Shown piece after piece: positions 15,555 through 32,162 of a stretch of DNA of 35,138 bases. Origin of the DNA: Rhodococcus triatomae BKS 15-14 (GTDB taxonomy: Bacteria; Actinomycetota; Actinomycetes; Mycobacteriales; Mycobacteriaceae); contig AODO01000011.1 in assembly GCA_000341795.1 (NCBI GenBank), positions 1-35,138 on the forward strand. The letters are read 5' to 3'. Positions within the stretch are counted from its first letter, which is position 1. The number at the start of each line of letters is the position of its first letter. The translations under genes and the position numbers were made by a program. Below the pieces are notes generated by a model. That model worked only from the letters and a program-made list of their open reading frames with translations. It was not told the DNA's origin and did not search any database.

Positions 15555-16331
15555 TCAGCGGGTGCCGCTGATACCCCCGTCGACCGGGATGACGGTCCCC
15601 GTCAGGTAGGCGCCCGCCCGCGACGACAGGAAGATCGCGGTGCCCGCGATGTCGTCGGGGCTGCCCACCCGACCGAGTGGGACACCGCCCTCGACCGCCG
15701 CGCGCGCGTCCGGGTTGTCCAGCACGAACGCCATCATCTTCGTCGGGAACGGTCCCGGCGCAATGGCATTGACGGTGATGTGCTCGCTCGCCAGGGTCGC
15801 GGCGAGCTTCCTCGTGAGCATGTGGACCGCCGCCTTCGACGCACCGTACGAGAAGTTCTCGGTTCCCGACACCCCGATGCCGTCGATCGAGCCGACGTTG
15901 ATCACGCGGGCGGGATCCTCGACGCTCGCCGCCGCCCGCAGCTGTGGCAGCAAACGCTGTGTCAGCAGGAACACCGACTTGACGTTGACGTTCATGATCT
16001 TGTCGAAGCCAGAGGCGGGGAACTCGTCGATCGGTGCGCCCCAGGTTGCGCCCGCGTTGTTGACGAGGACATCGACCTTGTCGAACTCGCCGGCGACGAA
16101 CGTCGCCAGGTCGGCGACGCCGTCCCCGGTGCCGAGGTCGGCGGGGTGCGCGACCACGTCACCGAATGCGGACAGTTCCGCGGCCGCGGCTGCGCAGGCG
16201 TCCGGCTTGCGGGAGGAGATGATCACCTTCGCGCCTGCTTCGGCGAAGCCCTTCGCGATCATCGACCCGATACCGCGGGTGCCGCCGGTGACGACGACGT
16301 TCTTTCCCGTGACGTCGAACAGATTTCCCAT
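15555..16331 (-). CDS. SDR-family oxidoreductase (last gene of operon)
   Basis: 258-aa classical short-chain dehydrogenase/reductase. Cofactor motif TGGTRGIG (15-22) with SSRKP after strand 2, where Arg41-Lys42 favours NADP(H); NNAG at 91-94; catalytic Ser148 (NVGSIDG), Tyr162 and Lys166 (YGASK). The C-terminus PVDGGISG is typical of 3-hydroxyacyl-CoA/FabG-like members. It is the seventh gene of the operon, before the terminator. In the proposed route it could oxidise a hydroxyacyl-CoA or interconvert 4-oxo and 4-hydroxy acyl-CoA; sequence alone does not decide. Start ATG 16331 behind AAGGGA. Confidence 0.9.
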   Translation of the reverse strand: MGNLFDVTGKNVVVTGGTRGIGSMIAKGFAEAGAKVIISSRKPDACAAAAAELSAFGDVVAHPADLGTGDGVADLATFVAGEFDKVDVLVNNAGATWGAPIDEFPASGFDKIMNVNVKSVFLLTQRLLPQLRAAASVEDPARVINVGSIDGIGVSGTENFSYGASKAAVHMLTRKLAATLASEHITVNAIAPGPFPTKMMAFVLDNPDARAAVEGGVPLGRVGSPDDIAGTAIFLSSRAGAYLTGTVIPVDGGISGTR

Positions 16332-16366: not shown

Positions 16367-17359
16367 TCAGCGCAGGAAGACGAGGCGGCCGACGGTGGAT
16401 CCGTCGCCGAGGCGGCCGACCCCGTCGGCGACGTCGGTGCCACCGCTGAGCGCGAGTCGCTCACCGATCAACGGGCGCAGCAGTCCCTCGTCGGCGAGTC
16501 GGGTCAGCTCGGTGTGACAGTCGTCGATGACGGCCCGGTTCTTCGCCTGGTACAGACCCCAGTGCAGGCCGACGATCGAGTAGTTCTTGATCAGCGCGTG
16601 GTTGAGGGCCGGCTGCGGAATGGTGCCACCGGCGAAGCCGATGACGACGATCCTGCCCTCGAACGCGATGCACTTGGTCGAGCCGGCGTAGGCGTCACCG
16701 CCGACCGGATCGAAGACGATGTCGGCGCCCCGGCCACCGGTGAACTCCTTGACTGCCGCAACGAAGTCCTCGGATCGCCGGTCGACGACGAGGTCGGCGC
16801 CGAGTTCCTTGGCGTAGGCGGCCTTCTCCGGCCCGCCGACGACGCCGATGACGGTGGCACCCGCGGCCTTGCCGAGTTGCACGGCCGCGCTCCCGACTCC
16901 ACCAGCGGCGGCGTGCACCAGCAGGACGTCTCCGGCGGCGATCTGCGTACGCCGGTGCAGGGCGAACCAGGCCGTCTGGTACCCGATGGTCAGCGCGGCG
17001 GCCTCGGCGTCGTCGAGGGCCTGCGGGGCGGGAAAGACGTTGCCCTGCTCCATGAGCGCGAACTCGGCGAACGCGCCGCCGGGCAGGACGGGCGTGCCGA
17101 CGACGCGGTCGCCGACGGCGGCGCGGGTGACACCCGCCCCGACTCCGACGACCTCGCCGCACAGTTCCACGCCCGGTGTGAACGGCAGCGGCGGTGTGAT
17201 CTGGTACTTGCCGCGGCAGAGCAGGACGTCCGGGAAGTTGGCCGGCGCAGCCAGCGTGCGGACGAGGACCTGACCCTCCCCCGGGGTCGGTTCGGGGACG
17301 TCCTCGAGCGTGAGGACGTCGCGGGGTTCACCGAGTTCATGGACGCGCCATGCCTTCAT
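16367..17359 (-). CDS. Zinc-independent MDR oxidoreductase (NADPH:quinone oxidoreductase-like)
   Basis: 330 aa, medium-chain dehydrogenase/reductase without zinc sites. The N-terminal GroES-like half has VLVRTLAAPANFPDVLLCRGKY and PFTPGVELCGEVV; the Rossmann half has the nucleotide motif AAAGGVGSAAVQLGKAAGA and DIVFDPVGGDAY. Such enzymes reduce quinones or the C=C bond of enoyl groups with NADPH. Within this operon, reduction of an enoyl-CoA or of an unsaturated lactone-derived acid is plausible. Start ATG 17359 behind AGGAGCTGAACG. It lies 43 bp after the upstream SDR. Confidence 0.9.
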   Translation of the reverse strand: MKAWRVHELGEPRDVLTLEDVPEPTPGEGQVLVRTLAAPANFPDVLLCRGKYQITPPLPFTPGVELCGEVVGVGAGVTRAAVGDRVVGTPVLPGGAFAEFALMEQGNVFPAPQALDDAEAAALTIGYQTAWFALHRRTQIAAGDVLLVHAAAGGVGSAAVQLGKAAGATVIGVVGGPEKAAYAKELGADLVVDRRSEDFVAAVKEFTGGRGADIVFDPVGGDAYAGSTKCIAFEGRIVVIGFAGGTIPQPALNHALIKNYSIVGLHWGLYQAKNRAVIDDCHTELTRLADEGLLRPLIGERLALSGGTDVADGVGRLGDGSTVGRLVFLR

Positions 17360-17402: not shown

Positions 17403-18161
17403 TCAGTCCCGAGGGCCGCCGGCGACGTAGACGACCTGACCGGACACGAAGCCGGCGCCGTCGCTCGCGAGGAACGACGCCGTGTTGGCGATGTCCTCGG
17501 GCTGACCGACGCGGCCGACGGGGATCTCCGCGGCGGCGGCCTTCTTCATGTCGTCGAAGTCCACCCCGACCCGCGCCGCGGTGGCGGCGGTCATCTCGGT
17601 CTCGATGAAGCCGGGGGCGATCGCGTTGGCGGTGACGCCGTAGCGGCCGAGTTCGATCGCGAGGGTCTTGGTGAAGCCCTGCATGCCGGCCTTCGCGGCC
17701 GAGTAGTTCGCCTGGCCCCGGTTGCCGAGCGCGGACACGCTCGACAGATTGACGATGCGCCCGAACTTGGCATCCACCATGTACTTCTGGACGGCGCGGG
17801 CCATCAGGAACGAACCGCGCAGGTGCACGCTCATCACCGAGTCCCAGTCCAGGACGCTCATCTTGAACAGCAGATTGTCCCGGGTGATGCCGGCGTTGTT
17901 GATCAACACCGTCGGCGCGCCGAGTTCGGTGGCCACCCGCTCGACCGCGTCGGCAACCGAGGCCTCGTCGGAGACGTCCGCACCGACGGCGAGGGCGGAG
18001 CCGCCCGCGGCCTCGATCGCGTCGACGGTGTCCACGCACGCGGACTCGTCGAGGTCGACGACCGCGACGGCATACCCGTCCGCGGCGAGCTTCTTCGCGA
18101 CGGCGGCGCCGATGCCTCGCGCCCCACCGGTGACGATCGCGGTCCTGCGTTCCTGGGTCAT
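17403..18161 (-). CDS. SDR-family 3-oxoacyl reductase/3-hydroxyacyl dehydrogenase (FabG-like)
   Basis: 252 aa. TGGARGIG (11-18) binds the cofactor; VVDLDES with Asp after strand 2 points to NAD(H); NNAG at 88-91; catalytic Ser140/141 (NLSSVS), Tyr153 and Lys157 (YSAAK). The ending VVYVAGGPRD is slightly unusual, FabG normally having VDGG. NAD preference would suit oxidation of a 3-hydroxyacyl-CoA, the step after MaoC hydration. I start at ATG 18161 behind GAGGA; the frame upstream runs into the kinase gene without similarity. 35 bp after the kinase gene. Confidence 0.9.
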   Translation of the reverse strand: MTQERRTAIVTGGARGIGAAVAKKLAADGYAVAVVDLDESACVDTVDAIEAAGGSALAVGADVSDEASVADAVERVATELGAPTVLINNAGITRDNLLFKMSVLDWDSVMSVHLRGSFLMARAVQKYMVDAKFGRIVNLSSVSALGNRGQANYSAAKAGMQGFTKTLAIELGRYGVTANAIAPGFIETEMTAATAARVGVDFDDMKKAAAAEIPVGRVGQPEDIANTASFLASDGAGFVSGQVVYVAGGPRD

Positions 18162-18196: not shown

Positions 18197-19243
18197 TCAG
18201 ATGCCCGCGGAGTCGGCGATCTCGCGGGCCTTGCGGACGATCGAGTCGATCCGCTCGGCCGTCGGTGTGCCGGCGGCGGCCTTGTTCGCGGGAGTGTCCA
18301 GCGCCCGCCGCATCACGCCCTCGGCGATGATCGACAGCTTCCACAGCCCGAGGGCGTGCCAGAACTTGAGCGCCTCCGGATCACGTCCGGTCTCGTCGAG
18401 GTAGATGCGCGCCAACTCGGCCCGGTCCGGGAACCCCTCGAGGGTGGACGCCGGGAAGTCACCTCCGGTGTCCTCACCGGGCTCGGGCCAGTACGCGAGC
18501 ATGGAACCCATGTCCGCCAACGGATCCCCGAGGGTGGAGAGTTCCCAGTCGAGCGCACCGATCACGTCGCCGGTCTCCCGGGAGACGATCACGTTGCGCA
18601 GATGGAAATCGCCGTGGACGAGAGACAGCTCTGTCTGCTCGGGGGCGGCGGCGACGAGCCGCCGGGTCAGGTCGTCGAGCTCGGGCAGTTCCCGCGTCTT
18701 CGACTGCTCCCACTGGCCGGCCCACCTCTTCAGCTGGCGCGCGGCGTACGGCTTGCGACCGGCCAGATCCGACAGGCCCACGCGGTCGAGGTCGACGGCA
18801 TGGATCTTCGCGAGGGTGCGGGGCAGCGACACCGCGATCTCCCGGCGCCGCTGCGTGGTGAGCGACTCGGCGATCTCCATGGTGTCGACGACCTGCCCGT
18901 CGATGTGCTCCATCAGGACCAGCGGAACCTCGGAGACAGCCGGATCCTGCGCGACGCCGAGGATCCGCGGGGCCGGGACGTCGGTGTCGGCGAGCGCCGC
19001 CATGATCCGCGCTTCCCGTGCCACGTCGTGCGCCGACGCGAGGAGGTGACCGAGTGGCGGGCGCCGCAGTACCCACCGCTTTCCCTCGTCGTCGGTCACG
19101 AGGTACGTGAGATTCGACTGGCCCAGACCGATGCGGCCGAAGGTGAGCCGTCCGGCGACCGTGATCCCGAGGTCGCCGAACCAGCCGGTCACCGCGGCCG
19201 GGTCGATTCCCACGACGTCGTCCTGTTGTACTGCGTCAGGCAC
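18197..19243 (-). CDS. APH-fold kinase, ACAD10/11 N-terminal-domain type (LvaA-like)
   Basis: 348 aa, phosphotransferase of the aminoglycoside-kinase fold. Nucleotide pocket LGQSNLTYLVTDDEGKRWVLRR (around 40-61, shown here as key residues Gln42, Asn44 and the Lys/Arg pair) and GHLLASAHDVAREARI; catalytic loop His210-Gly-Asp212-x4-Asn217; metal-binding Asp232 in LDWELSTLGDPLAD. These blocks match the kinase half of human ACAD11 (LIHGDFRLDNIV, LDWELSTIGHPLSD). Kinases of this type, including LvaA of Pseudomonas putida, phosphorylate the 4-hydroxyl of 4-hydroxyacyl-CoA. GTG 19243 overlaps the upstream SDR stop by 8 bp, giving tight coupling. The ACAD partner is two genes upstream. Substrate is inferred from family and neighbours. 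Confidence 0.88.
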   Translation of the reverse strand: MPDAVQQDDVVGIDPAAVTGWFGDLGITVAGRLTFGRIGLGQSNLTYLVTDDEGKRWVLRRPPLGHLLASAHDVAREARIMAALADTDVPAPRILGVAQDPAVSEVPLVLMEHIDGQVVDTMEIAESLTTQRRREIAVSLPRTLAKIHAVDLDRVGLSDLAGRKPYAARQLKRWAGQWEQSKTRELPELDDLTRRLVAAAPEQTELSLVHGDFHLRNVIVSRETGDVIGALDWELSTLGDPLADMGSMLAYWPEPGEDTGGDFPASTLEGFPDRAELARIYLDETGRDPEALKFWHALGLWKLSIIAEGVMRRALDTPANKAAAGTPTAERIDSIVRKAREIADSAGI

Positions 19244-20024
19244 CGAGGGACGCTCCGCTCCGGAACGGCAGGGCGTCGCCGAGCCGCATGCCACCGTCGA
19301 TCACCATGGTCTCGCCGGTGATCCAGGACGCGGCGTCGGAGGCGAGGAACGCGATCGCCGCGGCGACGTCCTCCGGCTCCCCGATCCGGGCAAGCGCGGT
19401 GGATGCCGCGACCTGCTCCTCGTGTTCCTTCCACAGCGCTTCCGCCAGCTTGGTGCGCACCACGCCGGGCGCGACGGAGTTGACCCGGATCCTCGGCGAC
19501 AGTTCCAGCGCGAGCTGCTTGGTCAGGTAGATCAGCGCCGCCTTGGACACGTTGTACATCCCGATACCGGCCTCGTGCCCGAGTCCGCCGATCGACGCGG
19601 TGTTCACGACCGATCCGCCGTGCTCACCCATCCACGCCTCGACGGCGAGCCGGGTCCACAGCAGCGGAGCCCACAGATTCACGTCCATCGTCTTCGCGAA
19701 TCGGCCGTGGTCCTGGTTGATCAACGGACCGAAGGCCGGATTGGTGCCCGCGTTGTTGACGAGAACGTCGACACGGCCGAACTTCTCGATCGTGAGCTCG
19801 ATACAACGCCGGGCCTGGTCCTCCTCGACCGCGTGCGCGCCGACCCCGATGGCGCTGCCGCGGATCAGGGCGGCGGCCTCGTCTGCTGCCTCCTGCTTGC
19901 GGGAGGTGAGCACCACGTTGGCACCGGCGTCGGCGAGGGCCTGCGCCGTCGCCAGTCCGATGCCCCGGGAGGCGCCGGTGACGATCGCGGTCCTACCGCT
20001 CAGGTCGAGGGTGTTGCTCGTCAT
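19236..20024 (-). CDS. SDR-family oxidoreductase
   Basis: 262 aa. TGASRGIG (16-23), NNAG (90-93), Ser144 (NTASIGG), Tyr157 and Lys161 (YNVSK), and C-terminal MVIDGGMRLG. TSRKQ after strand 2 suggests NADP(H). It sits between the ACAD (7 bp upstream) and the kinase (8-bp overlap), so the three are almost certainly translated together and in fixed stoichiometry. The position suggests action on the same 4-substituted acyl-CoA, for example 4-oxoacyl-CoA reduction as LvaD does in levulinate catabolism, but residues seen do not prove this. Confidence 0.9.
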   Translation of the reverse strand: MTSNTLDLSGRTAIVTGASRGIGLATAQALADAGANVVLTSRKQEAADEAAALIRGSAIGVGAHAVEEDQARRCIELTIEKFGRVDVLVNNAGTNPAFGPLINQDHGRFAKTMDVNLWAPLLWTRLAVEAWMGEHGGSVVNTASIGGLGHEAGIGMYNVSKAALIYLTKQLALELSPRIRVNSVAPGVVRTKLAEALWKEHEEQVAASTALARIGEPEDVAAAIAFLASDAASWITGETMVIDGGMRLGDALPFRSGASLGA

Positions 20025-20030
20025 GGGGAA

Positions 20031-21257
20031 TCAGACACCTTCCGGTCGCAGCTCGCGGTACCGGCGCAGCTCGCGCCGGGCGATGGCGCGCTTGTGCACC
20101 TCGTCCGGTCCGTCGGCCAGGCGCAGGGTGCGCAGGTGCGCGTAGGCCATGGCGAGCGGGAAGTCGTCGGTGACGCCGCCGCCGCCGTGCACCTGGATGG
20201 CGCGGTCGACGATCTTCAGCGCGATCTGCGGCGCGGCGACCTTGATCGCGGCGATCTCGGTCTGCGCCTCCTTGTTGCCGACGGTGTCCATCAGGTACGC
20301 CGCCTTGAGGGTGAGCAGTCGGATCATCTCGATGTCGATGCGCGCCTCCGCGATCCAGTCCTGGATGTTGGCGTTGTCGGCGACCGGCTTTCCGAAGGTC
20401 ACACGCGACTGGGCGCGCTTGCAGAGCAGTTCGAGGGCGCGTTCGGCCATGCCGATCGAGCGCATGCAGTGGTGGATCCGGCCGGGACCGAGACGGGCCT
20501 GACTGATCGCGAAGCCCTCCCCCTCGCCCTTGAGCACGTCCTTCGCCGGGACACGAACATCCGTGAAGTCGATCTCGCCGTGGCCCTCACGGTCCTGGTA
20601 GCCGAACACCGGCAGGTTCCGCAGAACGGTGACGCCGGGCGCGTCGATCGGCACGACCATCATCGACTGCTGCCGGTGCGGCGCCGCCGTCGGATCGGTC
20701 TTGCCCATCACGATCATCACCTTGCAGTTCTGGTGAAGAGCGTTGGAGGCGAACCACTTCCGGCCGTTCAAGATGTAGTCGTCGCCGTCGCGGACCATCG
20801 ACAGCTCGACGTTGGTGGCATCCGAGCTGGCCACCGCGGGCTCGGTCATCGCGAACGCGGACGCCATCGTGCCCTCGAGGAGAGGCTTGAGGTACTTCTC
20901 CTTGTGCTCCTCGGTCCCGAAGAGCTCGAACACCTCCATGTTGCCCGTGTCGGGGGCGTTGCAGTTGCAGGCCTCGGACGCGATGTGGCTGCGGCCCATG
21001 ATCTCCGCGAGCGGGGCGTACTCGAGGTTGGTCAGTCCGGCGCCGGTTCCGGGGTGCGGATGGAAGAGGTTCCACAGTCCCCGGCGCTTGGCCTCGGCCT
21101 TGAGCTCCTCGAGAACCGGGGGCTGGAAGTGCGGGTTGCCGGACTCGCGCATCTGCTCCTCGTACACGACCTCGGCCGGGTAGACGTGCGAGTCCATGAA
21201 GGCGAGCAGTTCCTTCTGCAACTGCTGGGCGCGTTCAGAGATGTCGAACAGGGACAT
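20031..21257 (-). CDS. Acyl-CoA dehydrogenase, ACAD10/11 type (LvaC-like)
   Basis: 408-aa FAD enzyme. It follows the ACAD half of human ACAD11 almost along its length: [12 protein letters not shown] (59-70), [12 protein letters not shown] (98-109), [15 protein letters not shown] (135-149), then [34 protein letters not shown] and [11 protein letters not shown] near the end. At the position where straight-chain ACADs carry the catalytic Glu (YEGT) this protein has Asp382 (ADGP), as the human ACAD10/11 group does. Human ACAD10/11 and LvaC act on 4-phosphoacyl-CoA, eliminating phosphate to give an enoyl-CoA. Start ATG 21257 behind CAGGAG. Second gene of the operon; substrate inferred. Confidence 0.93.
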
Positions 21258-21334
21258 GAGAACTCCTGGAGTGGAATGGATTCGAGTTGGTTCGTGGGCC
21301 TCGGTCGGGGACGGCCGCCCGATGCGGGCGGTGG

Positions 21335-22150
21335 TCAGCTGCCCTGGAGGGAGGCCTGGTAGCGGCGCATGCCGCGGAGCCAGCGGTCGTAGTCGGCACC
21401 CTTGTGCCGGTACATGTCGAGGACCTTGGGGTGCGGCAGGATCAGGAACCGCTCGTCGTCGATCGCAGCGAGGACGTCGGCGGCGACCTGCGCGGGCTCG
21501 AGGACGTCGCCGGCCTCGGTGACGGCCTTCATCGCCGTGGCCGACAGACCGTCCTGCGAATCGTCCTCGGGGAACAACAGTTTGGTGTTCACGCCCTGCG
21601 GGCACAGGCAGCTGACCTTGACACCCTGGTCGCCGTAGGTGACGGACAGCCACTCGGCGAATCCCACGGCGGCATGCTTCGTCACGGCGTAGGTCGCTCC
21701 GCCGATCTGGGTGAGCAGGCCCGCGGCGGAGGCGGTGCTGACGAAGTAGCCCTCGCCGCGCCGGGCCCATCCGGGCACCAGCAGTTGCGCGGCCCGGATG
21801 TGGGCACGCAGGTTGACGTCGAGCGAGAGGTCCCACGCGGCGTCGTCGGCGTCGAGGCCGGGCGCACCGGTGATGCCCGCGTTCGCGAAGTACATGTCGA
21901 CCGGACCGAACTTCTCCTCCGCCAGCGCGATCAGGGCGCGGATCACCTCGGTGTCGGAGACGTCGCCGCCGCCGGCGACCGCGGAACCGGGGTGTTCTGT
22001 GTTGATCTCGTCGACAACGGCCTGCGCCGTCGCGGCGTCGAGGTCGGCCACGACGATCCGCGCACCCTCGGTGGCGAGCGCCCGGGCGATGGCCCCGCCG
22101 ATTCCCCCGCCGCCCCCGGTGACGACGGCAACCTTGCCTGCAACCTTCAC
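21335..22150 (-). CDS. SDR-family oxidoreductase (first gene of operon)
   Basis: 271 aa from GTG 22150. TGGGGGIG (11-18) with ADLD after strand 2 (NAD-type acid), ANAG (89-92, Ala replacing the first Asn), Ser141 (STASAAG), Tyr154 and Lys158 (YAVTK). A longer C-terminal tail with [19 protein letters not shown] distinguishes it from the other three SDRs; this tail is common in mycobacterial SDRs of lipid metabolism. It opens the seven-gene operon, with a promoter and operator about 96-119 bp upstream, and is divergent from maoC. The exact substrate is unknown; a hydroxyacyl-CoA is likely. Confidence 0.9.
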
Positions 22151-22239
22151 TGACGAATCCCCGCTTTCGAGTCGATCGTGCGTGCCGAAGCGAAGGCCGG
22201 CGACGCCGACCCGAGCCGTGTGATGCAGCTCTCTCGTCA

Positions 22240-22276
22240 TGTATAGTTGAATCCGGCGTCAGATTCAACCTCATAT
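22240..22276. promoter_or_regulatory. Divergent promoter with perfect TetR-type operator (site O1)
   Basis: A 24-bp palindrome has perfect arms GTTGAATC (22246-22253) and GATTCAAC (22262-22269) around CGGCGTCA. On the minus strand TTGAAT (22268-22263) and TATACA (22245-22240) are spaced by exactly 17 bp, a sound -35/-10 pair for the SDR/ACAD operon. On the plus strand TTGAAT (22247-22252) is followed by a weaker TCATAT (22271-22276) towards maoC. A repressor on the palindrome would cover both promoters. Related sites lie at 23564, 23676, 27014 and 29296. Confidence 0.85.
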
Positions 22277-22326
22277 CGCTACCAGCGTGACGCCCCCACC
22301 TTGACCTGCAGACATCAAGGAGAACC

Positions 22327-22803
22327 ATGGACACGACCACCCTCCCGATCCGACCGAGCACGGCCGCGGACCTCGCCGATCTCGTGGGCCGGGAACTCGG
22401 CCCCACCGAGTGGTACGAGATCACCCAGGACCGCGTGAACGCGTTCGCGGACGCCACCGGTGACCACCAGTGGATCCACATCGACGTGGAGAAGGCCGCC
22501 GCCAGCCCGCTCGGCGGCACGATTGCGCACGGACTGTTCAGCCTCTCGCTCGGACCGTTCCTGTCGAGCCGGTTGCTCGCGTTCGACGGGTTCGCCCACG
22601 GCCTGAACTACGGCTACAACAAGGTTCGCTTTCCCGCTCCGGTCCCGGTCGGATCGCGAATCCGCATGCGTGTCACGGTGAATGCCGCCGACGAGGTCGC
22701 CGGCGGTATCCAGGTGACGACCACTCAGGTGGTCGAACTGGAGGGCTCCGACAAGCCCGTGATGGTCGCCGAGTCCGTGGCTCGCGTCGTCGCCGGAGCC
22801 TGA
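22327..22803 (+). CDS. MaoC-family enoyl-CoA hydratase
   Basis: 158-aa single-hotdog hydratase that adds water to trans-2-enoyl-CoA, giving (R)-3-hydroxyacyl-CoA. The hydratase motif is complete: [14 protein letters not shown], with catalytic Asp46 and His51, followed by [35 protein letters not shown] is the usual central strand region. Start ATG 22327 behind AAGGAG. It is divergent from the operon across the shared operator. In the proposed route it would hydrate the enoyl-CoA left by the ACAD/kinase pair. Its stereochemistry (R) would call for an R-specific SDR. Confidence 0.93.
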
Positions 22804-22832
22804 CCCGGAGACGTCCCCCGCCCGGCGCGCGC

Positions 22833-22852
22833 CTCCACGGACGACCGTGGAG
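22833..22852. terminator. Hairpin terminator between convergent maoC and tetR
   Basis: Perfect 8-bp stem CTCCACGG / CCGTGGAG with a 4-nt loop ACGA, 30 bp after the maoC stop and 26 bp after the tetR stop in the other direction. It may serve both transcripts. No U-tract. Confidence 0.6.
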
Positions 22853-22878
22853 CCCGGCGCCGGTCGGGGAATCTCGAG

Positions 22879-23550
22879 TCAGCGCCCGCCGGGGAACCTC
22901 AGCGCATTGGCCCACAGCCGGGTGAGCGCGCCGACCAGCTCGTCGAGGTCGTACTCGCGGCCACCGTCGGCCGCCTCACCCGAGACGAACACCCCGTATG
23001 CCATTCGGCTCACCATGCCGGAGAGGGCACGTGACGCCGTCATCGGATCGACCTCGGGGTCGGCGATCGACCGTCGCTGCAGTTCGGCGATGCCGCGAGC
23101 GTTGCGCTCGATGAACGCCTCGGCGCGCTCGGTCCGGATGCGTCGGAACTCCGGATCCACGTGGGCGACCTGCTCCATCAGCCCCATGAGCTTCGCATTG
23201 CGTTGATACGCGGTCAGATACGCGCGATTGCTCGCTTCCAGAACGGCGTACGGGTCGTCCTCGTCGTCGACCCGATCCATGCCGGGATGCATCATGTCCT
23301 TGCGGGCCTCTTCGAGGACGGCCGCGAAGACCTCTTCCTTGTTGGTGAAGTAGGTGTAGAAGGTGCCGGTGGCGCAGCCTGCCTCCTTCGTGATGTCCGT
23401 GAGGCGGGCGTCGAGATAGCCGTCGCGCTCGAACACGACCCGTGCCGCGGCGACGAGCGCGGCCCTGGTCCGCACGCCACGCGCGGTGGCGGGCATCTCG
23501 CGCACCGGCGGCGCCCCACCCCCGTCATTCCCGGGCACAATCGTCGTCAC
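22879..23550 (-). CDS. TetR-family repressor, paralogue 1 (candidate regulator of the island)
   Basis: 223 aa from GTG 23550. Helix-turn-helix region: RTRAALVAAARVVFERDGYL then LTDITKEAGCATGTFYTYF and NKEEVFAAVLEEA; the C-terminal domain has EASNRAYLTAYQRNAKLMGL, seemingly ligand-binding and dimerising. It is about two-thirds identical by eye to the second TetR at 27076-27747. The start is chosen because a -10 element TATAAA (23563-23558) ends 7 bp before this GTG, which predicts a leaderless mRNA; the length then equals that of the paralogue. Operator O2 overlaps this promoter, so it is probably autoregulated. The inducer may be an acyl-CoA of the pathway. Confidence 0.87.
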   Translation of the reverse strand: MTTIVPGNDGGGAPPVREMPATARGVRTRAALVAAARVVFERDGYLDARLTDITKEAGCATGTFYTYFTNKEEVFAAVLEEARKDMMHPGMDRVDDEDDPYAVLEASNRAYLTAYQRNAKLMGLMEQVAHVDPEFRRIRTERAEAFIERNARGIAELQRRSIADPEVDPMTASRALSGMVSRMAYGVFVSGEAADGGREYDLDELVGALTRLWANALRFPGGR

Positions 23551-23557
23551 CTTCACG

Positions 23558-23587
23558 TTTATACATGAATCTGGCGTCAAGTTCGAG
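23558..23587 (-). promoter_or_regulatory. tetR paralogue 1 promoter with operator O2
   Basis: The operator (23564-23587) is 17/24 identical to O1: TGAATCTGGCGTCA core with right arm AGTTCGA. On the minus strand TCGAAC (-35), 17 bp and TATAAA (-10, 23563-23558) repeat the promoter geometry of O1, followed 7 bp later by the GTG start. Confidence 0.72.
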
Positions 23588-23617
23588 GTTTCACCCACCG
23601 CCGCCCCCTCCCCCGAC

Positions 23618-23669
23618 CGGCTGAAGGCCGCCTTCGCTCGGCTGAACGAGCCGATGGCCACCTTCAGCC
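23618..23669. repeat. Intergenic palindromic repeat, copy C
   Basis: Arms GGCTGAAGGCCGCC and GGCCACCTTCAGCC (12 of 14 pairing) enclose an inner hairpin GCTCG-gctgaa-CGAGC. It shares an 18-mer with copy A (inverted, 23622-23639) and a 13-mer with copy B (23657-23669). It lies between a tetR gene and a divergent ligase gene, so termination is not its only possible role. Confidence 0.6.
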
Positions 23670-23675
23670 CGGAAA

Positions 23676-23699
23676 CTCGATATTGACGCCGACTTCAGG
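23676..23699. promoter_or_regulatory. TetR-type operator O3 before acyl-CoA ligase
   Basis: Read on the minus strand the site is CCTGAAGTCGGCGTCA followed by ATATCGAG, 15/24 identical to O1 with the full TGAAnYYGRYGTCA core. It lies 74-97 bp upstream of the ligase start. No good -10 element was found, so the promoter itself is not placed. Confidence 0.68.
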
Positions 23700-23772
23700 T
23701 GTGTGGTCTGGTGAGACCCACACCACAGTCGTAGTGATCACCCCCCACACCCGATCCGGAAGGCGCACGCCG

Positions 23773-25272
23773 ATGCCCAACCTGCTCGATCCGATCACCC
23801 GCCACGCCGCCGCGTCCGACACGGCGATCGCGATCCGCACCGCCGACGACAACTGGACCTACGCGACCCTGCGCGACCGCTGTCTGCGGTACGCGGGCGC
23901 GCTGCGCTCGGCGGGGGTCGGCGCAGGAGACCGCGTCCTGCTGGTCGCACCGTCGGTTCCCGAATTCGCGGTGGCATACATGGGGATTGCGGCCGTCGGC
24001 GCAGTCGTCGTTCCCGTCAACACCATGTCGACGGCAACCGAGATCGAGTACCACCTCACCGATTCGGGTGCCTCGCTCGCCATCGGCTGGCACGGCCTCG
24101 AACCTGCTGTGCGCGACGCGTGCGTCACCGTCGGGGTCGCACGGTGGAGTCTCGACGCGGGTGCCCCGAGCGACGCCGATCCGATCCCGGACGTCGTCGA
24201 CCGGGCGAGCTCCGACACCGCCGCCATCCTCTACACCTCCGGAACCACAGGACGACCGAAGGGCGCGCAGCTCACGGTCGGAAACCTGCTGGCCGCCGGC
24301 GAGATCGGGTCGGCGGTGAGCGGCGGAACCGCCAACGACCGCACGGGTACCGGCCTGCCGCTCTTCCACGTCTTCGGTCAGGCGTCCGTCATGATGGCCT
24401 CGTTCACCGGCGGGGGATCGTTGTCCCTGCTCAGCCGCTTCACCCCGGACGGGATGATCGAGATGATGCGGCGTGACGACCTGACGATCATGTGCGGCGT
24501 ACCGACGATGTGGAACGCCATGCTCCACGCCGCCGCCGATCTCGACGCGACCGACTTCGCGCACTTGCGGGTGGCCGTCTCCGGCGGAGCCTCGCTGCCC
24601 GGAGAGATCGCTCGCGCCTTCGAATCCCGCTTCGGCTGCACCATTCTCGAGGGGTACGGCCTCACCGAGACGACCGCGCTCGGCACGTTCAACGACGTCG
24701 AACGCGGCGGCAAGATCGGATACACCGGCGCGGCGGTGCCCCGGACGCAGGTCGAGGTCCGCGACGACGACGGCAGGCCCTGCGCCGCCGGGACCGTCGG
24801 CGAGGTGCACGTCAAGGGCGAGACCGTGATGTCGGGCTACTGGAACCGCCCCGACGCCACCGCAGCCGCCTTCACCGACGACGGCTGGTTCCGCACGGGC
24901 GACCTCGGTGAGTTCGACGGGGACGGCGATCTCCGCATCGTGGACCGGTTGAAGGACCTGGTCATCCGCGGCGGCTACAACGTCTATCCCGGCGAAGTCG
25001 AGGAGGTGCTCTACCAGCACCCCGAGATCGTCGAGGCGGCCGTCGTCGGCGTTCCCGACGACCACTACGGCGAGGAGGTCGCCGCGGTCGTCGCCCGACG
25101 GCCGGGCTCCGAGCTCACGGCGGAGGAGGTGATCGCCTGGAGCAGGGAGAGACTGTCGGCCTACAAGATTCCGCGTATCGTCCGATTCGTGGACCAACTC
25201 CCCAAGGGATCGACCGGCAAGATCCTCAAGCGCGACATCGACCGTGCCGAGCTGCGGGCGGCACACGCATGA
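23773..25272 (+). CDS. Acyl-CoA ligase (class I adenylate-forming)
   Basis: 499 aa. Activates a carboxylic acid to its CoA thioester through an acyl-adenylate. ATP loop ILYTSGTTGRPKGAQLT (A3, around 152-168), YGLTETTAL (A5), WFRTGDLGEFD (A7), RLKDLVIRGGYNVYPGEVEE (A8 hinge and CoA tunnel) and C-terminal PKGSTGKILKRDI with the catalytic Lys (A10). All core residues are present. Start ATG 23773 behind GGAAGG; the frame upstream overlaps operator O3. Its stop overlaps the next start (ATGA), so it is coupled to the CurA-like reductase. It is the second ligase in the island beside the one next to qsdA; chain-length specificity cannot be read. Confidence 0.92.
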   Translation: MPNLLDPITRHAAASDTAIAIRTADDNWTYATLRDRCLRYAGALRSAGVGAGDRVLLVAPSVPEFAVAYMGIAAVGAVVVPVNTMSTATEIEYHLTDSGASLAIGWHGLEPAVRDACVTVGVARWSLDAGAPSDADPIPDVVDRASSDTAAILYTSGTTGRPKGAQLTVGNLLAAGEIGSAVSGGTANDRTGTGLPLFHVFGQASVMMASFTGGGSLSLLSRFTPDGMIEMMRRDDLTIMCGVPTMWNAMLHAAADLDATDFAHLRVAVSGGASLPGEIARAFESRFGCTILEGYGLTETTALGTFNDVERGGKIGYTGAAVPRTQVEVRDDDGRPCAAGTVGEVHVKGETVMSGYWNRPDATAAAFTDDGWFRTGDLGEFDGDGDLRIVDRLKDLVIRGGYNVYPGEVEEVLYQHPEIVEAAVVGVPDDHYGEEVAAVVARRPGSELTAEEVIAWSRERLSAYKIPRIVRFVDQLPKGSTGKILKRDIDRAELRAAHA

Positions 25273-26267
25273 GCAACCGTCAGGTCCGCCTCGCCACCCG
25301 CCCCGTCGGACGCATCGACGACAACACCTGGTCGATCACCTCCGAGCCCGTCCCCGAGCCCGGCGCGGGTGAGTTCGTGGTGAAGATCGACTACGTGTCC
25401 GTCGATCCGGCGATGCGCGGCTGGCTCGACGACGTCCGCTCGTACGTACCACCGGTCGCCATCGGCGCCGTCATGCGCGCACACGCCGTCGGCCGGGTCC
25501 ACGCCTCCCGCAACGACCGGTTCCCCGCCGGCACGCCGGTCTCGGGACTCTTCGGCGCCTGCGAGTACGCCCTGTCCGACGGCTCGGACGTGACGGTCGT
25601 CGACCTCGATCTCGCGCCCGGCCCGACATGGCTGGGCGCGCTCGGATTCCCGGGCATGACCGCCTACTTCGGGCTCCTCGACGTCGGTCGCCTGCGGCCC
25701 GGCGACACCGTGCTGATCTCGGGTGCCGCGGGCGCGGTGGGCAGCATCGCGGGTCAGATCGCGAAACTGTTGGGCTGCCGCGTCATCGGCATCGCGGGCG
25801 GCCCGGAGAAGTGCGCCTGGCTGACCGACGAGCTCGGCTTCGACGCGGCGATCGACTACCGCGCCGGGTCGATCGGCCGGGCGTTGCGCGCCGCGGCACC
25901 GAAGGGAATCGACGTGTTCTTCGACAACGTCGGGGGCGACATCCTGAACTCGGCGCTCGCCCAGCTCCGGACACACGCGCGGGTCGTGATCTGCGGGGCC
26001 ATCTCCGGATACAACGCGACGGAGCCGCAACCCGGGCCGTCGCGCTACCTGTCCCTGCTCGTCAACCGGGCGTCGATGGCCGGTCTCATCGTGTTCGACT
26101 ACGCGGACCGATTCCCGGAGGCGCAGGCCGCGTTGTCGAACTGGATCCGGCGTGGCGATCTGATCACGCGCGAGCAGGTCCGGTCCGGCGGCATCGAGGC
26201 GTTCGGCGACACACTGAACATGCTGTTCGACGGCGCCAACACCGGCAAACTCGTCCTGGAGGTGTAG
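25269..26267 (+). CDS. NADP-dependent MDR reductase (CurA / leukotriene-B4-dehydrogenase family)
   Basis: 332 aa, zinc-free MDR. N-terminal VRLATRPVGRIDDNTW and VDYVSVDPAMRGWLDD-like region (here KIDYVSVDPAMRGWLDD) are diagnostic of the PTGR/CurA group; the Rossmann part has LISGAAGAVGSIAGQIAKL and IAGGPEKCAWL; then VFFDNVGGDILNSAL and GAISGYNAT. These enzymes reduce the C=C bond of alpha,beta-unsaturated ketones or 2-alkenals with NADPH. It is translationally coupled to the ligase by a 4-bp overlap. Here it might saturate an unsaturated precursor before or after activation; that is inference. Confidence 0.9.
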   Translation: MSNRQVRLATRPVGRIDDNTWSITSEPVPEPGAGEFVVKIDYVSVDPAMRGWLDDVRSYVPPVAIGAVMRAHAVGRVHASRNDRFPAGTPVSGLFGACEYALSDGSDVTVVDLDLAPGPTWLGALGFPGMTAYFGLLDVGRLRPGDTVLISGAAGAVGSIAGQIAKLLGCRVIGIAGGPEKCAWLTDELGFDAAIDYRAGSIGRALRAAAPKGIDVFFDNVGGDILNSALAQLRTHARVVICGAISGYNATEPQPGPSRYLSLLVNRASMAGLIVFDYADRFPEAQAALSNWIRRGDLITREQVRSGGIEAFGDTLNMLFDGANTGKLVLEV

Positions 26268-26319
26268 TGCCGCGTGAGCGTCGCCGGTGGAGGGAACCAC
26301 CGGCGGCGGGCACGGGTCG

Positions 26320-26967
26320 TCAGCACACCGACGTGGGGAATCCGAAGCGGTCGCGCAGTTGGCGGGCGGTGTCGGCGCCGGCGGTGTGGAGGACGCCGGC
26401 GATGCCCAGCCGCGCGGCACCGTCGAGGTTCTGCTGCAGGTCGTCCACCATCACCGCCTGCTCGGGAGCGACGCCGAGCCGCTCGCAGGCGATCCGGTAG
26501 ATCTGTCGCGACGGCTTTCGGATCCCGACCTCCGACGAGATCACCACCTCGTCGGCGAGCTCGCCGAGATCGAACCCGGCGTACGTGTCTCTCCCGAATG
26601 CATTGGAGACCAGGGCAACCGGAACGCCGGCCGACCGCAGGGCTCCGAGCAGAGCGATCGTCGCATCGTCGCGACGCAGCCCCGCCTGCATTCGCGCGGA
26701 GAGACCGGCGGACTCGACCGCGGCTCCGTGCGCGCGGAGACGCTCGGCGAATCCCTCGTCGAACGTCGTGGCGTCGATGCGACCGGACTCGTGCGCCGAC
26801 AGCAGTGATCGCGAGGTCTCGTCGCGAGCGAGCAGGGTCAGCGGCAGGTCGGGATCGCCGATGTCCGATCCGAATGCGCGGAACGCGCCCAGGACGCTGG
26901 TCGTCACCACTCCCCCGAAGTCGACCAGGACCGCAGTGCGATCGGCGTCCACCGTGCTCGACGTCAT
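26320..26967 (-). CDS. HAD-superfamily protein, ACAD10 N-terminal-domain type
   Basis: 215 aa. HAD motifs: VLVDFGGVV with nucleophile Asp16; VSNAF (motif II Ser); GIRKPSRQIYRIACERLG (motif III Lys); VMVDDLQQNLDGAARLGI (motif IV Asp pair). The second Asp of the usual DxD is Gly18, so phosphatase activity may be weak or altered. The pattern agrees with the HAD part of human ACAD10 (GGV; CKPDPRIY; LDDLGTNL; AARLGI) and of soluble epoxide hydrolase. Found with the separate kinase and ACAD genes, it completes an ACAD10 domain set. Operator O4 lies 47-70 bp upstream. Role unproven: phosphate removal or proofreading is possible. Confidence 0.82.
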   Translation of the reverse strand: MTSSTVDADRTAVLVDFGGVVTTSVLGAFRAFGSDIGDPDLPLTLLARDETSRSLLSAHESGRIDATTFDEGFAERLRAHGAAVESAGLSARMQAGLRRDDATIALLGALRSAGVPVALVSNAFGRDTYAGFDLGELADEVVISSEVGIRKPSRQIYRIACERLGVAPEQAVMVDDLQQNLDGAARLGIAGVLHTAGADTARQLRDRFGFPTSVC

Positions 26968-27013: not shown

Positions 27014-27037
27014 TTTGAACTCGACGTCAACATTGAA
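27014..27037. promoter_or_regulatory. TetR-type operator O4 before HAD gene
   Basis: TTTGAACTCGACGTCA with right arm ACATTGAA, 14/24 identical to O1 and with the shared core. On the minus strand TTCAAT and an ATATGC/TATGCG hexamer flank the same 17-18-bp spacer as at O1. It sits between the second tetR stop and the HAD start, in an AT-rich stretch. Confidence 0.68.
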
Positions 27038-27075: not shown

Positions 27076-27747
27076 TCAGCTGCGAGGAATCACGAGCGCG
27101 TTGACCCACAGCCGCGTCGCGGTTCGCACCAACGCGTCGAGGTCGCCGTCGCCGTCGCCGATCACGAAGTGGCCGAACGCGAGCCGGCTGATCATTCCCG
27201 ACAGTGCACGCGAGGCGAGCAACGGGTCCATGTCGGAGTCCGCGAGTCCACGGGACTGCAGCGACGCGATGCTGCGCGCGTTGCGCCTGATGAACGCGTC
27301 ACCGCGTTCCTGGCGGAGTCGGCGGAACTCCGGGTCCACGTTCGCGACCTGTTCGAGCAGGCCCATCAGTTTCGCGTTGCGCCGATACGCTTCGAAGTAC
27401 GCACGATTGCTCGCTTCGACGATGGCGGCGGGGTCGTCCTCGTCCGCGACGTGCGGCATCCCGGGATGCATCATGTCCTCTTGCGCGAGCTCGAGAACCG
27501 CGGCGAAGATCTCCTCCTTGCTGGAGAAGTACGTGTAGAACGTCCCCGCCGAGCAGCTCGCCTCCTTGGTGATGTCGATCAGCCGGGTGTCGAGGTACCC
27601 CTCGCGCTCGAAGACCGCACGGGCGGCGGAGATCAGCGCCGAACGGGTGCGCTGCCCGCGTTCGGTGGCGGGAAGTTCGCGAAGCAGCGCCGAGTTCGCC
27701 ATCGACGGCGGCGCGTCCTCGGGGGCCTCCTCTGTAGAACCTGACAT
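27076..27747 (-). CDS. TetR-family repressor, paralogue 2
   Basis: 223 aa from ATG 27747. HTH region RTRSALISAARAVFEREGYL, LIDITKEASCSAGTFYTYF and SKEEIFAAVLELA; C-terminal EASNRAYFEAYRRNAKLMGL and LASRALSGMISRLAFGHFV. It and the TetR at 22879 are close paralogues (same length, recognition helices differing at few positions), so they may bind the same operator family with different ligands. A TATAAC hexamer (27760-27755) ends 7 bp before the ATG, predicting a leaderless transcript. Unlike paralogue 1, no shared-type operator was found at its own promoter, so it may be constitutive. Confidence 0.87.
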   Translation of the reverse strand: MSGSTEEAPEDAPPSMANSALLRELPATERGQRTRSALISAARAVFEREGYLDTRLIDITKEASCSAGTFYTYFSSKEEIFAAVLELAQEDMMHPGMPHVADEDDPAAIVEASNRAYFEAYRRNAKLMGLLEQVANVDPEFRRLRQERGDAFIRRNARSIASLQSRGLADSDMDPLLASRALSGMISRLAFGHFVIGDGDGDLDALVRTATRLWVNALVIPRS

Positions 27748-27885: not shown

Positions 27886-29262
27886 TCAGCGCCCGAGTTG
27901 CGCACCCGGGACGGCGGCCGGATCGTTGCGCACCTCCGCCGGATTGGTCTCCCGCAGCCGCCACGCGGAGAGGACGGTGACCAGTCCCATCAAGGCGACG
28001 AACACCGCGACGAGAGTGGTGGTTCCGGTCCGGGCGATCAGCGCCGTCATGATGAACGGGGTTCCGCCACTCACGGTGATCGCCGCCAGCTGGTACGCGA
28101 GCGACGCTCCGGAGTACCGCACGTTCGGGGCGAACAGTTCGCCCATGTACGCGGCGATCGGACCGTAGGTCATCGACTGGAAGATGCTGCCGACCGTGAC
28201 GGCGAGGAAGAACAGCCCGAGGTTCGCCGTGTTGACGAGCATGAAGTACGGGAACGCCCACAGCACGATCGCGATGCCACCCGCGATGATCATGGGACGC
28301 CGACCGATGCGGTCCGAGACCCATCCCGAGAAGGCCACCACGGGCACCGAGATGATGCAGCTGAGCATCGAGATCGTCAGCAGGTCGTTCCGGTTCATGT
28401 CCAGCTCGGAGGTGGCGTAGGTGAGCACGCCCGCGATCGAGATGTAGAACAGCGCGTTCGTCGCCGCGAGCAGCCCGCAGCCGAGCAGGATCGTGCGCCA
28501 GTGCTCCCGGAGCGCCTGCTTCAACGGCGCCTGTGCGACGACCTCCTTGCCCGCGGACGCCTTCTCCTCCAGTTCCTTGAACTCCGGACTGTCCTCGACC
28601 TTGGTCTGGATGTAGAGGACGACGGGGAACAGGACGGCGCTGGCGAGGAAGGGAATGCGCCAGCCCCACGCAAGGAAGGCGTCGTTCGAGATCGCCGCAG
28701 TGGCGCTGAGGAACGCGATGTTGCCGAGCACGACACCGAACGACACGCCCATCTGCCCGAAAGTGCCCGAGAAGCCCCGCTTCTTGGGATCGGCGGACTC
28801 GGTGAGCAGCAGGACGATCCCGCCCCACTGGCCACCGCACGCCAGACCCTGGACGAAGCGCAGCACGACCAGCAGGATCGGCGCCGCGACCCCGATCGCG
28901 TCGGCGCCGGGAAGGCAGCCGATGAGGAAGGTCGCCAGGCCCATCAGGAGCAGACAGACGACCACGGCGGGCTTGCGACCGAACTTGTCGCCGTAGTGAC
29001 CGGCGATGAGCCCGCCGAGCGGGCGCGCGACGAAGCCGGCCCAGAACGTGCTGAACGAGAGCAACGTCGCCATGAGCGGCGACGAGTCCGGGAAGAACAC
29101 GTGCGGGAACACCAGCGCGGCCGCGGTTCCGTAGAGGAAGAAGTCGTACCACTCGATGGAACTGCCGACGAGTCCGGCGAACAACAGCTTGCGGTGGGCG
29201 CTGGCACCCGCCTTCGACCGGGTGGCGGTTCTGCGACTGGGGTCGACTGCCGATGTGGTCAT
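27886..29262 (-). CDS. MFS transporter, metabolite:H+ symporter (MHS) family
   Basis: 458 aa, 12 predicted helices. Family signatures: helix 1 GLVGSSIEWYDFFLYGTAAA, the loop LGGLIAGHYGDKFGRKPAV (motif A), RFVQGLACGGQWGG in helix 4, and TYGPIAAYMGELFAPNVRYSG, which closely resembles shikimate, alpha-ketoglutarate and proline/betaine symporters of the MHS group. These import organic acids with protons. With operator O5 upstream and the ligases around it, uptake of a hydroxy- or keto-acid substrate of the island is the likely role. Start ATG 29262 behind AGGAGG. Confidence 0.91.
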   Translation of the reverse strand: MTTSAVDPSRRTATRSKAGASAHRKLLFAGLVGSSIEWYDFFLYGTAAALVFPHVFFPDSSPLMATLLSFSTFWAGFVARPLGGLIAGHYGDKFGRKPAVVVCLLLMGLATFLIGCLPGADAIGVAAPILLVVLRFVQGLACGGQWGGIVLLLTESADPKKRGFSGTFGQMGVSFGVVLGNIAFLSATAAISNDAFLAWGWRIPFLASAVLFPVVLYIQTKVEDSPEFKELEEKASAGKEVVAQAPLKQALREHWRTILLGCGLLAATNALFYISIAGVLTYATSELDMNRNDLLTISMLSCIISVPVVAFSGWVSDRIGRRPMIIAGGIAIVLWAFPYFMLVNTANLGLFFLAVTVGSIFQSMTYGPIAAYMGELFAPNVRYSGASLAYQLAAITVSGGTPFIMTALIARTGTTTLVAVFVALMGLVTVLSAWRLRETNPAEVRNDPAAVPGAQLGR

Positions 29263-29295
29263 CCATCCTCCTGAGAGTCGTTCACTGGACAGGTG

Positions 29296-29319
29296 TTCAA
29301 AGTTGACATCAACTTCAAG
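29296..29319. promoter_or_regulatory. TetR-type operator O5 before MHS transporter
   Basis: On the minus strand CTTGAAGTTGATGTCA with right arm ACTTTGAA, 14/24 identical to O1; the outer arms are the most AT-rich of the five. It lies 34-57 bp upstream of the transporter start and after the stop of the qsd ligase gene, showing that the transporter has its own promoter. Confidence 0.68.
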
Positions 29320-29416
29320 TAAGCGAGCGCTTGCCCACTATCTCGGACCAGAGTTGTGATGTCAATCACTTTCGCGGGTGACTCGACGCCACACGCGAGT
29401 CGACGGTGTGCGCGCG

Positions 29417-31063: not shown

Positions 31064-32037
31064 GCCGCGGTCTCGAAGTAGCGCCGCGGGTTGTCGACCA
31101 TCATCACGGCGATCTGCTGCTCGGTGACGCCCCGGTCCAGGAGTGCGGGAATCACGTCGTCGCTGATGTGGGTGAAGTTCCAGTTCGGGACGGCTGCCGC
31201 CTTGGCGCCCTCCTCGAACCAGTCGATGAAGCACGCGGCATCGTGCGCGAGCACCATCTTCTCCGCGTATCCCCGGCGGACCAGTTCGGCCACGGTGTCG
31301 ACCCGGTTCGCGAACGGGAGCAGTACGTCGAGACCGAACCGGTCCATGCCGAGATACGACCCCGCGTCCGCGAGGGAGCACAGGTGGTCGAGATCGGTGG
31401 AGTCGCCGGAGTGGCCGATGACGACCTTCGTCAGATCCACACCCTCGGATGCGAGGACCTTCTGCGCGACGAGGCCCGACTCCGTGTGCGGGTTCGTGTG
31501 CACGGTGATCGGGGCGCCGGTCTCGACGTGCGCCTGGCCCACCGCCCGCATGACGCGCTCGACTCCCGGCGTCAGGCCCTGCGCCTCGATGGCGCACTTG
31601 AGGAACGCCGCCTTGACCCCGGTGTCGGCGATCCCCTCGCGGATGTCCTTGACGAACAGCTCGACCATCGGCTCGGGCACGTCGAAGAGCAGGCCGGGGC
31701 CGGTGTAGTGGAACTGGAACGGAACGTCGTTGTAGGTGTAGATCCCGGTCGCGACCACGATGTTGACGTCGACCTGCTCGTTGATCCGCTGGATGCGTGG
31801 GATGTAGCGTCCGAGGCCGATGACGGTCGGGTCGACGATGGTGTCGATTCCACGCCCCGAGCACTCGGTGAGCTTCGCGACGGCGTCGGCGACCCGGGCG
31901 TCCTCGTCCCAGTGATTGGGATGGTCGCCGTAGTTCTGCCTCATCTCCTCGCCGAGAACGAAGACGTGTTCGTGCATGAGCGTGGACCCGAGTGCGGCGA
32001 CGTCGACGGGTCCGCGAACGGTCTGTACTTGGGACAT
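31060..32037 (-). CDS. qsdA: QsdA-type lactonase (phosphotriesterase-like, quorum quenching)
   Basis: 325-aa TIM-barrel metalloenzyme of the PTE-like lactonase family. Metal ligands are visible: His22 and His24 (LMHEHVFVLGE), the carbamylated Lys147 (AAFLKCAIEAQG), His180 (ITVHTNPHTE), His209 (VIGHSGDSTDLDHL) and Asp266 (VLAHDAACFIDWF). The whole sequence resembles R. erythropolis QsdA, which opens the lactone ring of N-acyl-homoserine lactones and is linked to gamma-lactone growth. Start ATG 32037 behind GAGGAG. First gene of a two-gene operon with the ligase; divergent from qsdR across a palindrome. Products from gamma-lactones would be 4-hydroxy acids, the substrate expected for the rest of the island. 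Confidence 0.93.
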   Translation of the reverse strand: MSQVQTVRGPVDVAALGSTLMHEHVFVLGEEMRQNYGDHPNHWDEDARVADAVAKLTECSGRGIDTIVDPTVIGLGRYIPRIQRINEQVDVNIVVATGIYTYNDVPFQFHYTGPGLLFDVPEPMVELFVKDIREGIADTGVKAAFLKCAIEAQGLTPGVERVMRAVGQAHVETGAPITVHTNPHTESGLVAQKVLASEGVDLTKVVIGHSGDSTDLDHLCSLADAGSYLGMDRFGLDVLLPFANRVDTVAELVRRGYAEKMVLAHDAACFIDWFEEGAKAAAVPNWNFTHISDDVIPALLDRGVTEQQIAVMMVDNPRRYFETAA

Positions 32038-32071
32038 GAGAGCTCCTCGATGTGACTGGCATCACTCTTGG

Positions 32072-32096: not shown

Positions 32097-32162
32097 GGGA
32101 CCCCGAGTCGTCAACCGTCACCTCGAATTGCATGATGTTCCAGCACGTGAGGAGATGACCTG

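Follow-up and report, generated by a model that had tools for sequence, protein, structure and literature searches.

A kinase, an acyl-CoA dehydrogenase-family protein and a HAD protein resembling the parts of ACAD10/ACAD11 lie beside a qsd-like operon in Rhodococcus triatomae: a probable gamma-lactone and 4-hydroxy acid catabolic locus

The DNA analysed here (the window, 35,138 nucleotides) is a contig of about 35 kb, AODO01000011.1, from the 5.8-Mb genome of Rhodococcus triatomae BKS 15-14, and it carries on its minus strand the genes for an APH-fold kinase, an acyl-CoA dehydrogenase-family protein (ACAD) and a HAD protein, which resemble the three parts of ACAD10. The data suggest that this locus is probably a regulon for the catabolism of gamma-lactones and 4-hydroxy acids, with a kinase/ACAD route and a HAD protein that restrains the kinase. 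The positions of the three genes in the original prediction were confirmed by the minus-strand translations, which match known Pfam families, while the plus-strand translations over the same genes look by eye like shadow frames. That prediction had placed all three parts in one locus; all are indeed present, but the HAD gene stands apart as a unit of its own, outside the ACAD-kinase operon and 5.1 kb away from the ACAD gene. It had also missed a qsdRACD-like locus (27886-32729) about 6 kb upstream of the ACAD-kinase operon, and this neighbouring qsd-like locus suggests a source of 4-hydroxyacyl-CoA.

In the proposed route, a QsdA-type lactonase would open a gamma-lactone to the 4-hydroxy acid, which a QsdC-type ligase would convert to 4-hydroxyacyl-CoA. 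The kinase would phosphorylate the 4-hydroxyl to give 4-phosphoacyl-CoA, and the ACAD, which has an Asp as base and an Arg/His/Arg pocket for the phosphate, would then eliminate the phosphate and yield 2-enoyl-CoA, with no net oxidation. A MaoC-type hydratase and an SDR (short-chain dehydrogenase/reductase) protein may then feed this product into beta-oxidation; the formation of 3-ketoacyl-CoA by MaoC and SDR proteins, as first predicted, is plausible from their family names. SDR_D, the SDR encoded next to the ACAD, may interconvert 4-keto- and 4-hydroxyacyl-CoA like LvaD, or may invert an S isomer that is poorly taken by the kinase. The ACAD10 kinase prefers the R isomer about fourfold (PMC11342911), so SDR_D could handle the other isomer. 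The HAD protein would be a dedicated partner that restrains the kinase as in ACAD10 and so keeps phosphoacyl-CoA from accumulating. What the analysis establishes is the identity and order of the genes, the key residues, the palindromes that the units share and the conservation of these features, whereas the reactions, the substrate, the palindrome-binding protein and the function of the HAD are inferred.

The likeness of both the ACAD and the kinase to ACAD11 is far beyond chance. In phmmer searches of solved structures, the best ACAD matches were ACAD11 (8v3u, 445 bits; 2wbi, 435 bits) and a putative ACAD (4hr3, 432 bits), after which scores dropped sharply to at most 155 bits for ordinary solved ACADs. 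The near word-for-word likeness claimed earlier was also seen, as LADGPDEVH and one longer stretch align unchanged to ACAD11. The structure entry 8v3v differs from 8v3u at one Asp, and 8v3u for its part has Ala in place of the HGD Asp of the kinase; both fit the two mutants described in PMC12440821. The window ACAD carries residues that are reported as peculiar to ACAD10, ACAD11 and LvaC. In ACAD11, R626, H634 and R637 bind the 4-phosphate, R631 is conserved in ACADs and D753 is the base (PMC12440821). The equivalents of R626, R631, H634, R637 and D753 in the window ACAD are R255, R260, H263, R266 and D382, as counted by hand on an alignment whose chain numbers are one below the published numbering throughout. 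Among 123 distinct relatives (loci L031-L180; repeated rows were removed for all residue counts), R255 and R260 were kept in all 123, H263 in 121 (one Tyr, one gap), R266 in 121 (two gaps) and D382 in 117 (six gaps). The corresponding counts in 54 low-scoring ACADs were 2 for R255, 38 for R260, 0 for H263, 5 for R266 and 2 for D382.

The best solved matches of the kinase were 9o56 (167 bits), 3dxp (155 bits) and ACAD11 (138-142 bits), and among the matches listed the macrolide, hygromycin and APH-VIII kinases reached at most 38 bits. Entry 9o56 was deposited as an 'Aminoglycoside phosphotransferase' and 3dxp as a putative acyl-CoA dehydrogenase; LvaA is also labelled an aminoglycoside phosphotransferase in a table of PMC6692424. 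The HGD and DWE motifs are present in the window kinase, with the HGD Asp aligning with D220 of ACAD11, and of 79 distinct relatives with scores of at least 250 bits, 78 have the Asp of both motifs and the remaining one has a gap. A set of named genomes from several phyla, made up of the best 80 of 596 candidate ACAD loci, had a kinase of this type in the examined stretch of 50 loci, a stretch that is short for some contigs, and within 300 bp of the ACAD in 35. Seven Pseudomonas-type loci had such an ACAD and no kinase recognised by the model, which makes them unusable as a yardstick for the lva operon. The residues, nearest relatives and gene neighbourhood together give good support to the predicted pair, with the kinase as a proposed 4-hydroxyacyl-CoA kinase of the LvaA/ACAD11 type and the ACAD as a proposed 4-phosphoacyl-CoA phosphate-eliminating enzyme. 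The genome of the window holds at least four ACAD11-type ACADs and at least ten kinases of this type; the further ACADs include those at C68:156647, C53:120851 and C68:219709 (contig:position), and the further kinases include those at C37:34193 and C72:233132.

The ACAD-kinase operon reads SDR_D, ACAD, SDR_C, kinase, SDR_B, MDR protein and SDR_A, followed by a thioesterase gene, and the start of the kinase gene overlaps SDR_C by 8 bp. In the qsd-like locus, qsdR is divergent from qsdA-qsdC-qsdD. The QsdR orthologue scored 268 bits to 4za6 over residues 1-186, with the next TetR at 23 bits. The labels QsdA-, QsdC- and QsdD-type rest on gene position and on matches to Pfam families and solved structures. 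The lactonase matched 4if2 at 427 bits and 2vc5, a Sulfolobus lactonase, at 248 bits, and plainly named phosphotriesterases reached at most 156 bits among the matches listed. It also holds the words HEH, K, H, H and D, presumably the metal ligands of a lactonase. The entry 4za6 is named as the QsdR structure in PMC6262395, which also places a FadR gene downstream of qsdR in R. erythropolis. The gene order of R. erythropolis R138 is qsdR, qsdA, qsdC, qsdD (PMC4640858). In the published pathway, gamma-caprolactone (the gamma-lactone of 4-hydroxyhexanoic acid) is opened and ligated to CoA, and it is reported to release QsdR from DNA (PMC6476934). For what follows ligation, the relevant passages of PMC3689677 name just a beta- or omega-oxidation step.

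The lactone genes and the ACAD-kinase genes are also linked in relatives. The searches, which score a limited number of candidates per genome, covered 151 genomes of the family and found the lactonase in 59, an ACAD orthologue in 66 and both in 28 at the thresholds used. Thirty lactonases had at least 70% identity; 21 of these are in ACAD-bearing genomes, where the ACAD is no more than 12 kb away in 11 cases and no more than 25 kb away in 13. About 0.1 would be expected within 12 kb by chance. At 50-70% identity there were 31 lactonases, of which 9 are in ACAD-bearing genomes and 3 within 12 kb of the ACAD. QsdR was found in 12 of the 151 genomes, and 11 of these genes are 126-186 bp from the lactonase; the twelfth is in a genome with no lactonase at the threshold and lies 983 bp from the ACAD. 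Two relatives (L035 and L041) have qsdR divergent from a one-direction array of qsdA, ligase, SDR_D, ACAD, SDR_C (in L035) and kinase. Two others (L211 and L212) have qsdR followed by qsdA, kinase and ligase. In L044 (10679-14481), QsdR faces SDR_D, ACAD and kinase, and no lactonase was found at the threshold in the 20-kb stretch or in the genome, so QsdR there may sense something besides lactones.

A shared palindrome connects these units further. Matches to the pattern of the palindrome TTGAATCCGGCGTCAGATTCAA with at most three mismatches occur 13 times in the window, at 8 places of which 3 are inside genes; the expectation is 1.4 matches, and none of 100 shuffles reached 13. Six sites from relatives were used to build a matrix, which gave five window sites of 19.4-35.1 bits, followed by the next site at 12.2 bits; among 200 shuffles the highest score was 19.2 bits. 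Because the consensus used to find the training sites came from the window palindrome, the two strong window sites are no independent test of the matrix, and its independent gain is the sites before HAD and qsdD. In L213, sites were found before SDR_D (32.6 bits), between FadD1 and TetR1 (26.6 bits), before qsdD (22.1 bits) and before HAD (19.8 bits), and in L047 before SDR_D (27.0 bits) and between HAD and qsdA (19.5 bits). The TetR1 and TetR2 regulators are the obvious candidates for palindrome binding, a role that is putative for both. Across the genome the strict pattern occurs once, at 22247. A looser pattern with two mismatches gave 36 genome hits and 5 for the reversed control, and these may mark other regulon members; the candidates at C6:84668 and C1:130329 match on both strands.

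The original prediction left the role of the HAD protein open, and it can now be tied to the same gene neighbourhood and a probable regulon. Its best NCBIfam match is TIGR02247 (epoxide hydrolase N-terminal-like HAD) at 88.4 bits, and ten relatives scored 78-109 bits, so that all 11 are below the curated cut-off of 125.4 bits; the window HAD has no named family. Motif I reads D-F-G-G. D16, G18, K151, D175 and D176 were kept in all 40 distinct relatives, which means that motif I keeps the first Asp and has Gly in place of the second. A model made of nine rows from nine linked loci gave 114 hits in 148 genomes of the class; the scores show a gap at 170 bits, and this value was taken as the clade threshold. 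Sixty-five hits were at or above this threshold; 44 of them are in ACAD genomes, and the ACAD is at most 10 kb away for 26 and at most 2.5 kb away for 21. Of the 49 lower hits, 37 are in ACAD genomes and 1, cut by a contig end, is within 10 kb. Nearly all of the linked clade HADs (24/26) fall in nine families not used for model building. At least 8 of the 26 are 2-11 bp from a kinase gene, distances that come from 22 chosen kinase rows and are examples rather than a count. When flanks of up to 1.5 kb around 30 HAD loci were inspected, 18 showed a kinase (6) or an ACAD (12). In L065 the genes for HAD, kinase and ACAD stand in the domain order of ACAD10 and overlap or are 2 bp apart, with starts chosen by script. 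No fusion among the three was found in the stop-to-stop frames of L031-L230 at 50 bits. Outside this group, the genomes of 17 loci mostly from beyond the Actinomycetes (18 were chosen and L132 was left out) gave some match to the HAD clade in 15 cases, and 5 matches reached 130 bits, with 1 beside a kinase and 1 beside an ACAD.

The HAD thus belongs with the kinase and the ACAD by neighbourhood and by probable regulon. That it is a mere neighbour was considered and rejected on the clade association and the palindrome, though one relative of the same genus (G004, locus L031) has no HAD at the corresponding place. The HAD part of ACAD10 has only the first motif-I Asp and stays with the kinase after processing (PMC11342911, section 8), and mutation of the remaining motif-I Asp raised kinase output, with phosphatase activity being negligible (PMC11342911). 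LvaA of P. putida is partnered by LvaB, in whose place P. citronellolis carries a phosphatase-family gene (PMC6692424). Because of this behaviour of ACAD10 and these partners of LvaA, the bacterial HAD can be read by analogy as a putative kinase-restraining partner. A true phosphatase that acts on dead-end 4-phospho acids or on 4-phosphoacyl-CoA is a somewhat unlikely alternative to such a partner. It would account for the conserved nucleophile Asp, Lys and Asp pair and for YihX, deposited as a glucose-1-phosphate phosphatase, being among the best solved matches at about 45 bits, but it fits poorly with the Gly that replaces the second motif-I Asp in every relative and with ACAD10, whose HAD is also one Asp short.

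Several observations weigh against the proposed regulon. As to the HAD, only 27 of the 106 ACADs, spread over 27 of the 86 genomes, have it within 10 kb (the one cut by a contig end included), and it is near the ACAD in 6 of the 80 named-genome loci, so it is not essential, and G004 does without it as noted above. As to the lactone, 10 of the 21 QsdA orthologues in ACAD genomes are more than 12 kb away or on another contig, only 2 of the 6 genomes of the genus with an ACAD orthologue (the window's and G004) have a lactonase at the threshold, and by calorimetry four lactone-ring compounds did not bind QsdR (PMC4640858). The two one-array relatives, L035 and L041, have best palindromes of 12.9 and 17.2 bits, below the strength of those in the window, so the palindrome regulon cannot be a general feature. 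Finally, the further ACADs (at least three) and kinases (at least nine) in the genome suggest that substrates may have diverged. The same phosphorylate-and-eliminate chemistry might therefore serve another hydroxyacyl-CoA, such as one from a cyclic ketone, a terpenoid or a 5-hydroxy acid, with the qsd genes only as neighbours. This was judged unlikely: the number of ACADs and kinases, the many extra oxidoreductases in the operon and the many relatives that have the pair with no qsdA nearby (including 4 of the 6 in the genus at the threshold) speak for it, but the tight qsdA-ligase-SDR_D-ACAD-kinase arrays divergent from qsdR and the relative in which qsdR alone faces SDR_D-ACAD-kinase argue for a lactone. 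It is very improbable that the ACAD is just another acyl-CoA dehydrogenase and that the kinase has a different kind of substrate. Both proteins do come from broad superfamilies, but the Asp at the base position, the phosphate-binding residues, the kinase linkage in the named-genome loci and the lack of activity of ACAD10 and ACAD11 towards plain acyl-CoAs in the conditions of PMC12440821 all speak against this.

The kind of pathway proposed here is already known from the lva operon of Pseudomonas and from a Burkholderia kinase-ACAD pair that has been tested (PMC11342911). The window resembles mouse and human ACAD10/ACAD11 in its kinase and ACAD sequences (compared with ACAD11) and key residues, and resembles ACAD10 in a HAD with only the first motif-I Asp, a likeness seen in the motif; unlike them, it has separate genes, a HAD in its own unit and a lactonase operon alongside. 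The lva operon of Pseudomonas putida (LvaA-LvaE) likewise keeps kinase, ACAD, SDR and CoA ligase together; however, it starts from levulinic acid, the 12-kDa LvaB partners LvaA (PMC6692424), according to PMC12440821 it lacks a homologue of the HAD of ACAD10, and the passages describing the operon name no lactonase. The qsdRACD locus of Rhodococcus erythropolis R138 shares the divergent qsdR, lactonase, CoA ligase and MFS transporter, whereas no kinase, ACAD or HAD is named in the passages on its pathway and the window has them nearby. What is new is the link with the qsd lactone operon, together with evidence for a bacterial HAD that belongs with the kinase and ACAD. In the open literature searched, with most subscription papers outside its scope, neither a kinase/ACAD in the qsd pathway nor the bacterial HAD linkage was found.

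The qsd lactone pathway serves plant biocontrol by rhodococci, and a kinase and a phosphate-eliminating ACAD beside the qsd genes make its post-ligation step testable. The locus suggests how gamma-lactones may enter fat breakdown. A free-standing bacterial HAD near the kinase offers a simple test bed for the idea that the HAD of human ACAD10 has a regulatory role. A broader proposal, which is tentative and which we consider somewhat more doubtful than not, is that the HAD is of ancient origin and serves 4-hydroxyacyl-CoA kinases as a dedicated regulatory subunit. The actinobacterial HAD-kinase pair would then be the unfused N-terminal half of ACAD10, ACAD10 would have come from fusion of an L065-like HAD-kinase-ACAD set, and these enzymes would also supply the so far missing lower part of the quorum-quenching lactone pathway of rhodococci.

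Table 1. Features of the window in order of position (a dot marks sites given for no strand)
Feature	Position	Strand	Remarks
SDR_A	15555..16331	-	family match
MDR protein	16367..17359	-	quinone-oxidoreductase-like
SDR_B	17403..18161	-	FabG-like; after kinase
APH-fold kinase, LvaA/ACAD10-11 type, proposed 4-hydroxyacyl-CoA kinase	18197..19243	-	GTG start; Pfam APH 165 bits
SDR_C	19236..20024	-	between ACAD and kinase
ACAD10/11/LvaC-type ACAD, proposed 4-phosphoacyl-CoA phosphate lyase	20031..21257	-	ATG start; 445 bits to ACAD11
SDR_D	21335..22150	-	first gene of ACAD-kinase operon; adjoins ACAD in many relatives
Operator-like palindrome TTGAATCCGGCGTCAGATTCAA	22247..22268	.	SDR_D/MaoC divergent promoter; 35.1 bits
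MaoC-type hydratase	22327..22803	+	divergent from ACAD-kinase operon
TetR1 regulator	22879..23496	-	67% identical to TetR2
Palindrome copy	23565..23586	.	TetR1/FadD1 divergent promoter; 30.2 bits; upstream of TetR1 if start is 23556 or 23496
Weak second copy, TetR1/FadD1 promoter	23677..23698	.	19.4 bits, barely above best shuffle
FadD1, second acyl-CoA ligase	23773..25272	+	
MDR-type oxidoreductase	25269..26267	+	
HAD protein, unnamed clade near TIGR02247	26320..26967	-	ATG start; Pfam Hydrolase 59 bits
Palindrome copy	27015..27036	.	47 bp upstream of HAD start; 21.8 bits
TetR2 regulator	27076..27747	-	possible palindrome reader; binding putative
QsdD-type MFS transporter	27886..29262	-	position, Pfam
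Palindrome copy	29297..29318	.	34 bp upstream of qsdD start; 21.0 bits
QsdC-type acyl-CoA ligase	29417..31063	-	start overlaps qsdA stop
QsdA-type phosphotriesterase-like lactonase	31060..32037	-	Pfam PTE; structure matches
QsdR orthologue, TetR-type repressor of gamma-lactone operon	32163..32729	+	PDB 4za6

Beyond these features, qsdR is followed by two genes named by eye, one methyltransferase-like (32602-33651) and the other again of TetR type (33626-34360). An AurF-type N-oxygenase family protein is encoded at 34357-35138, after TetR4 and at the end of the contig.

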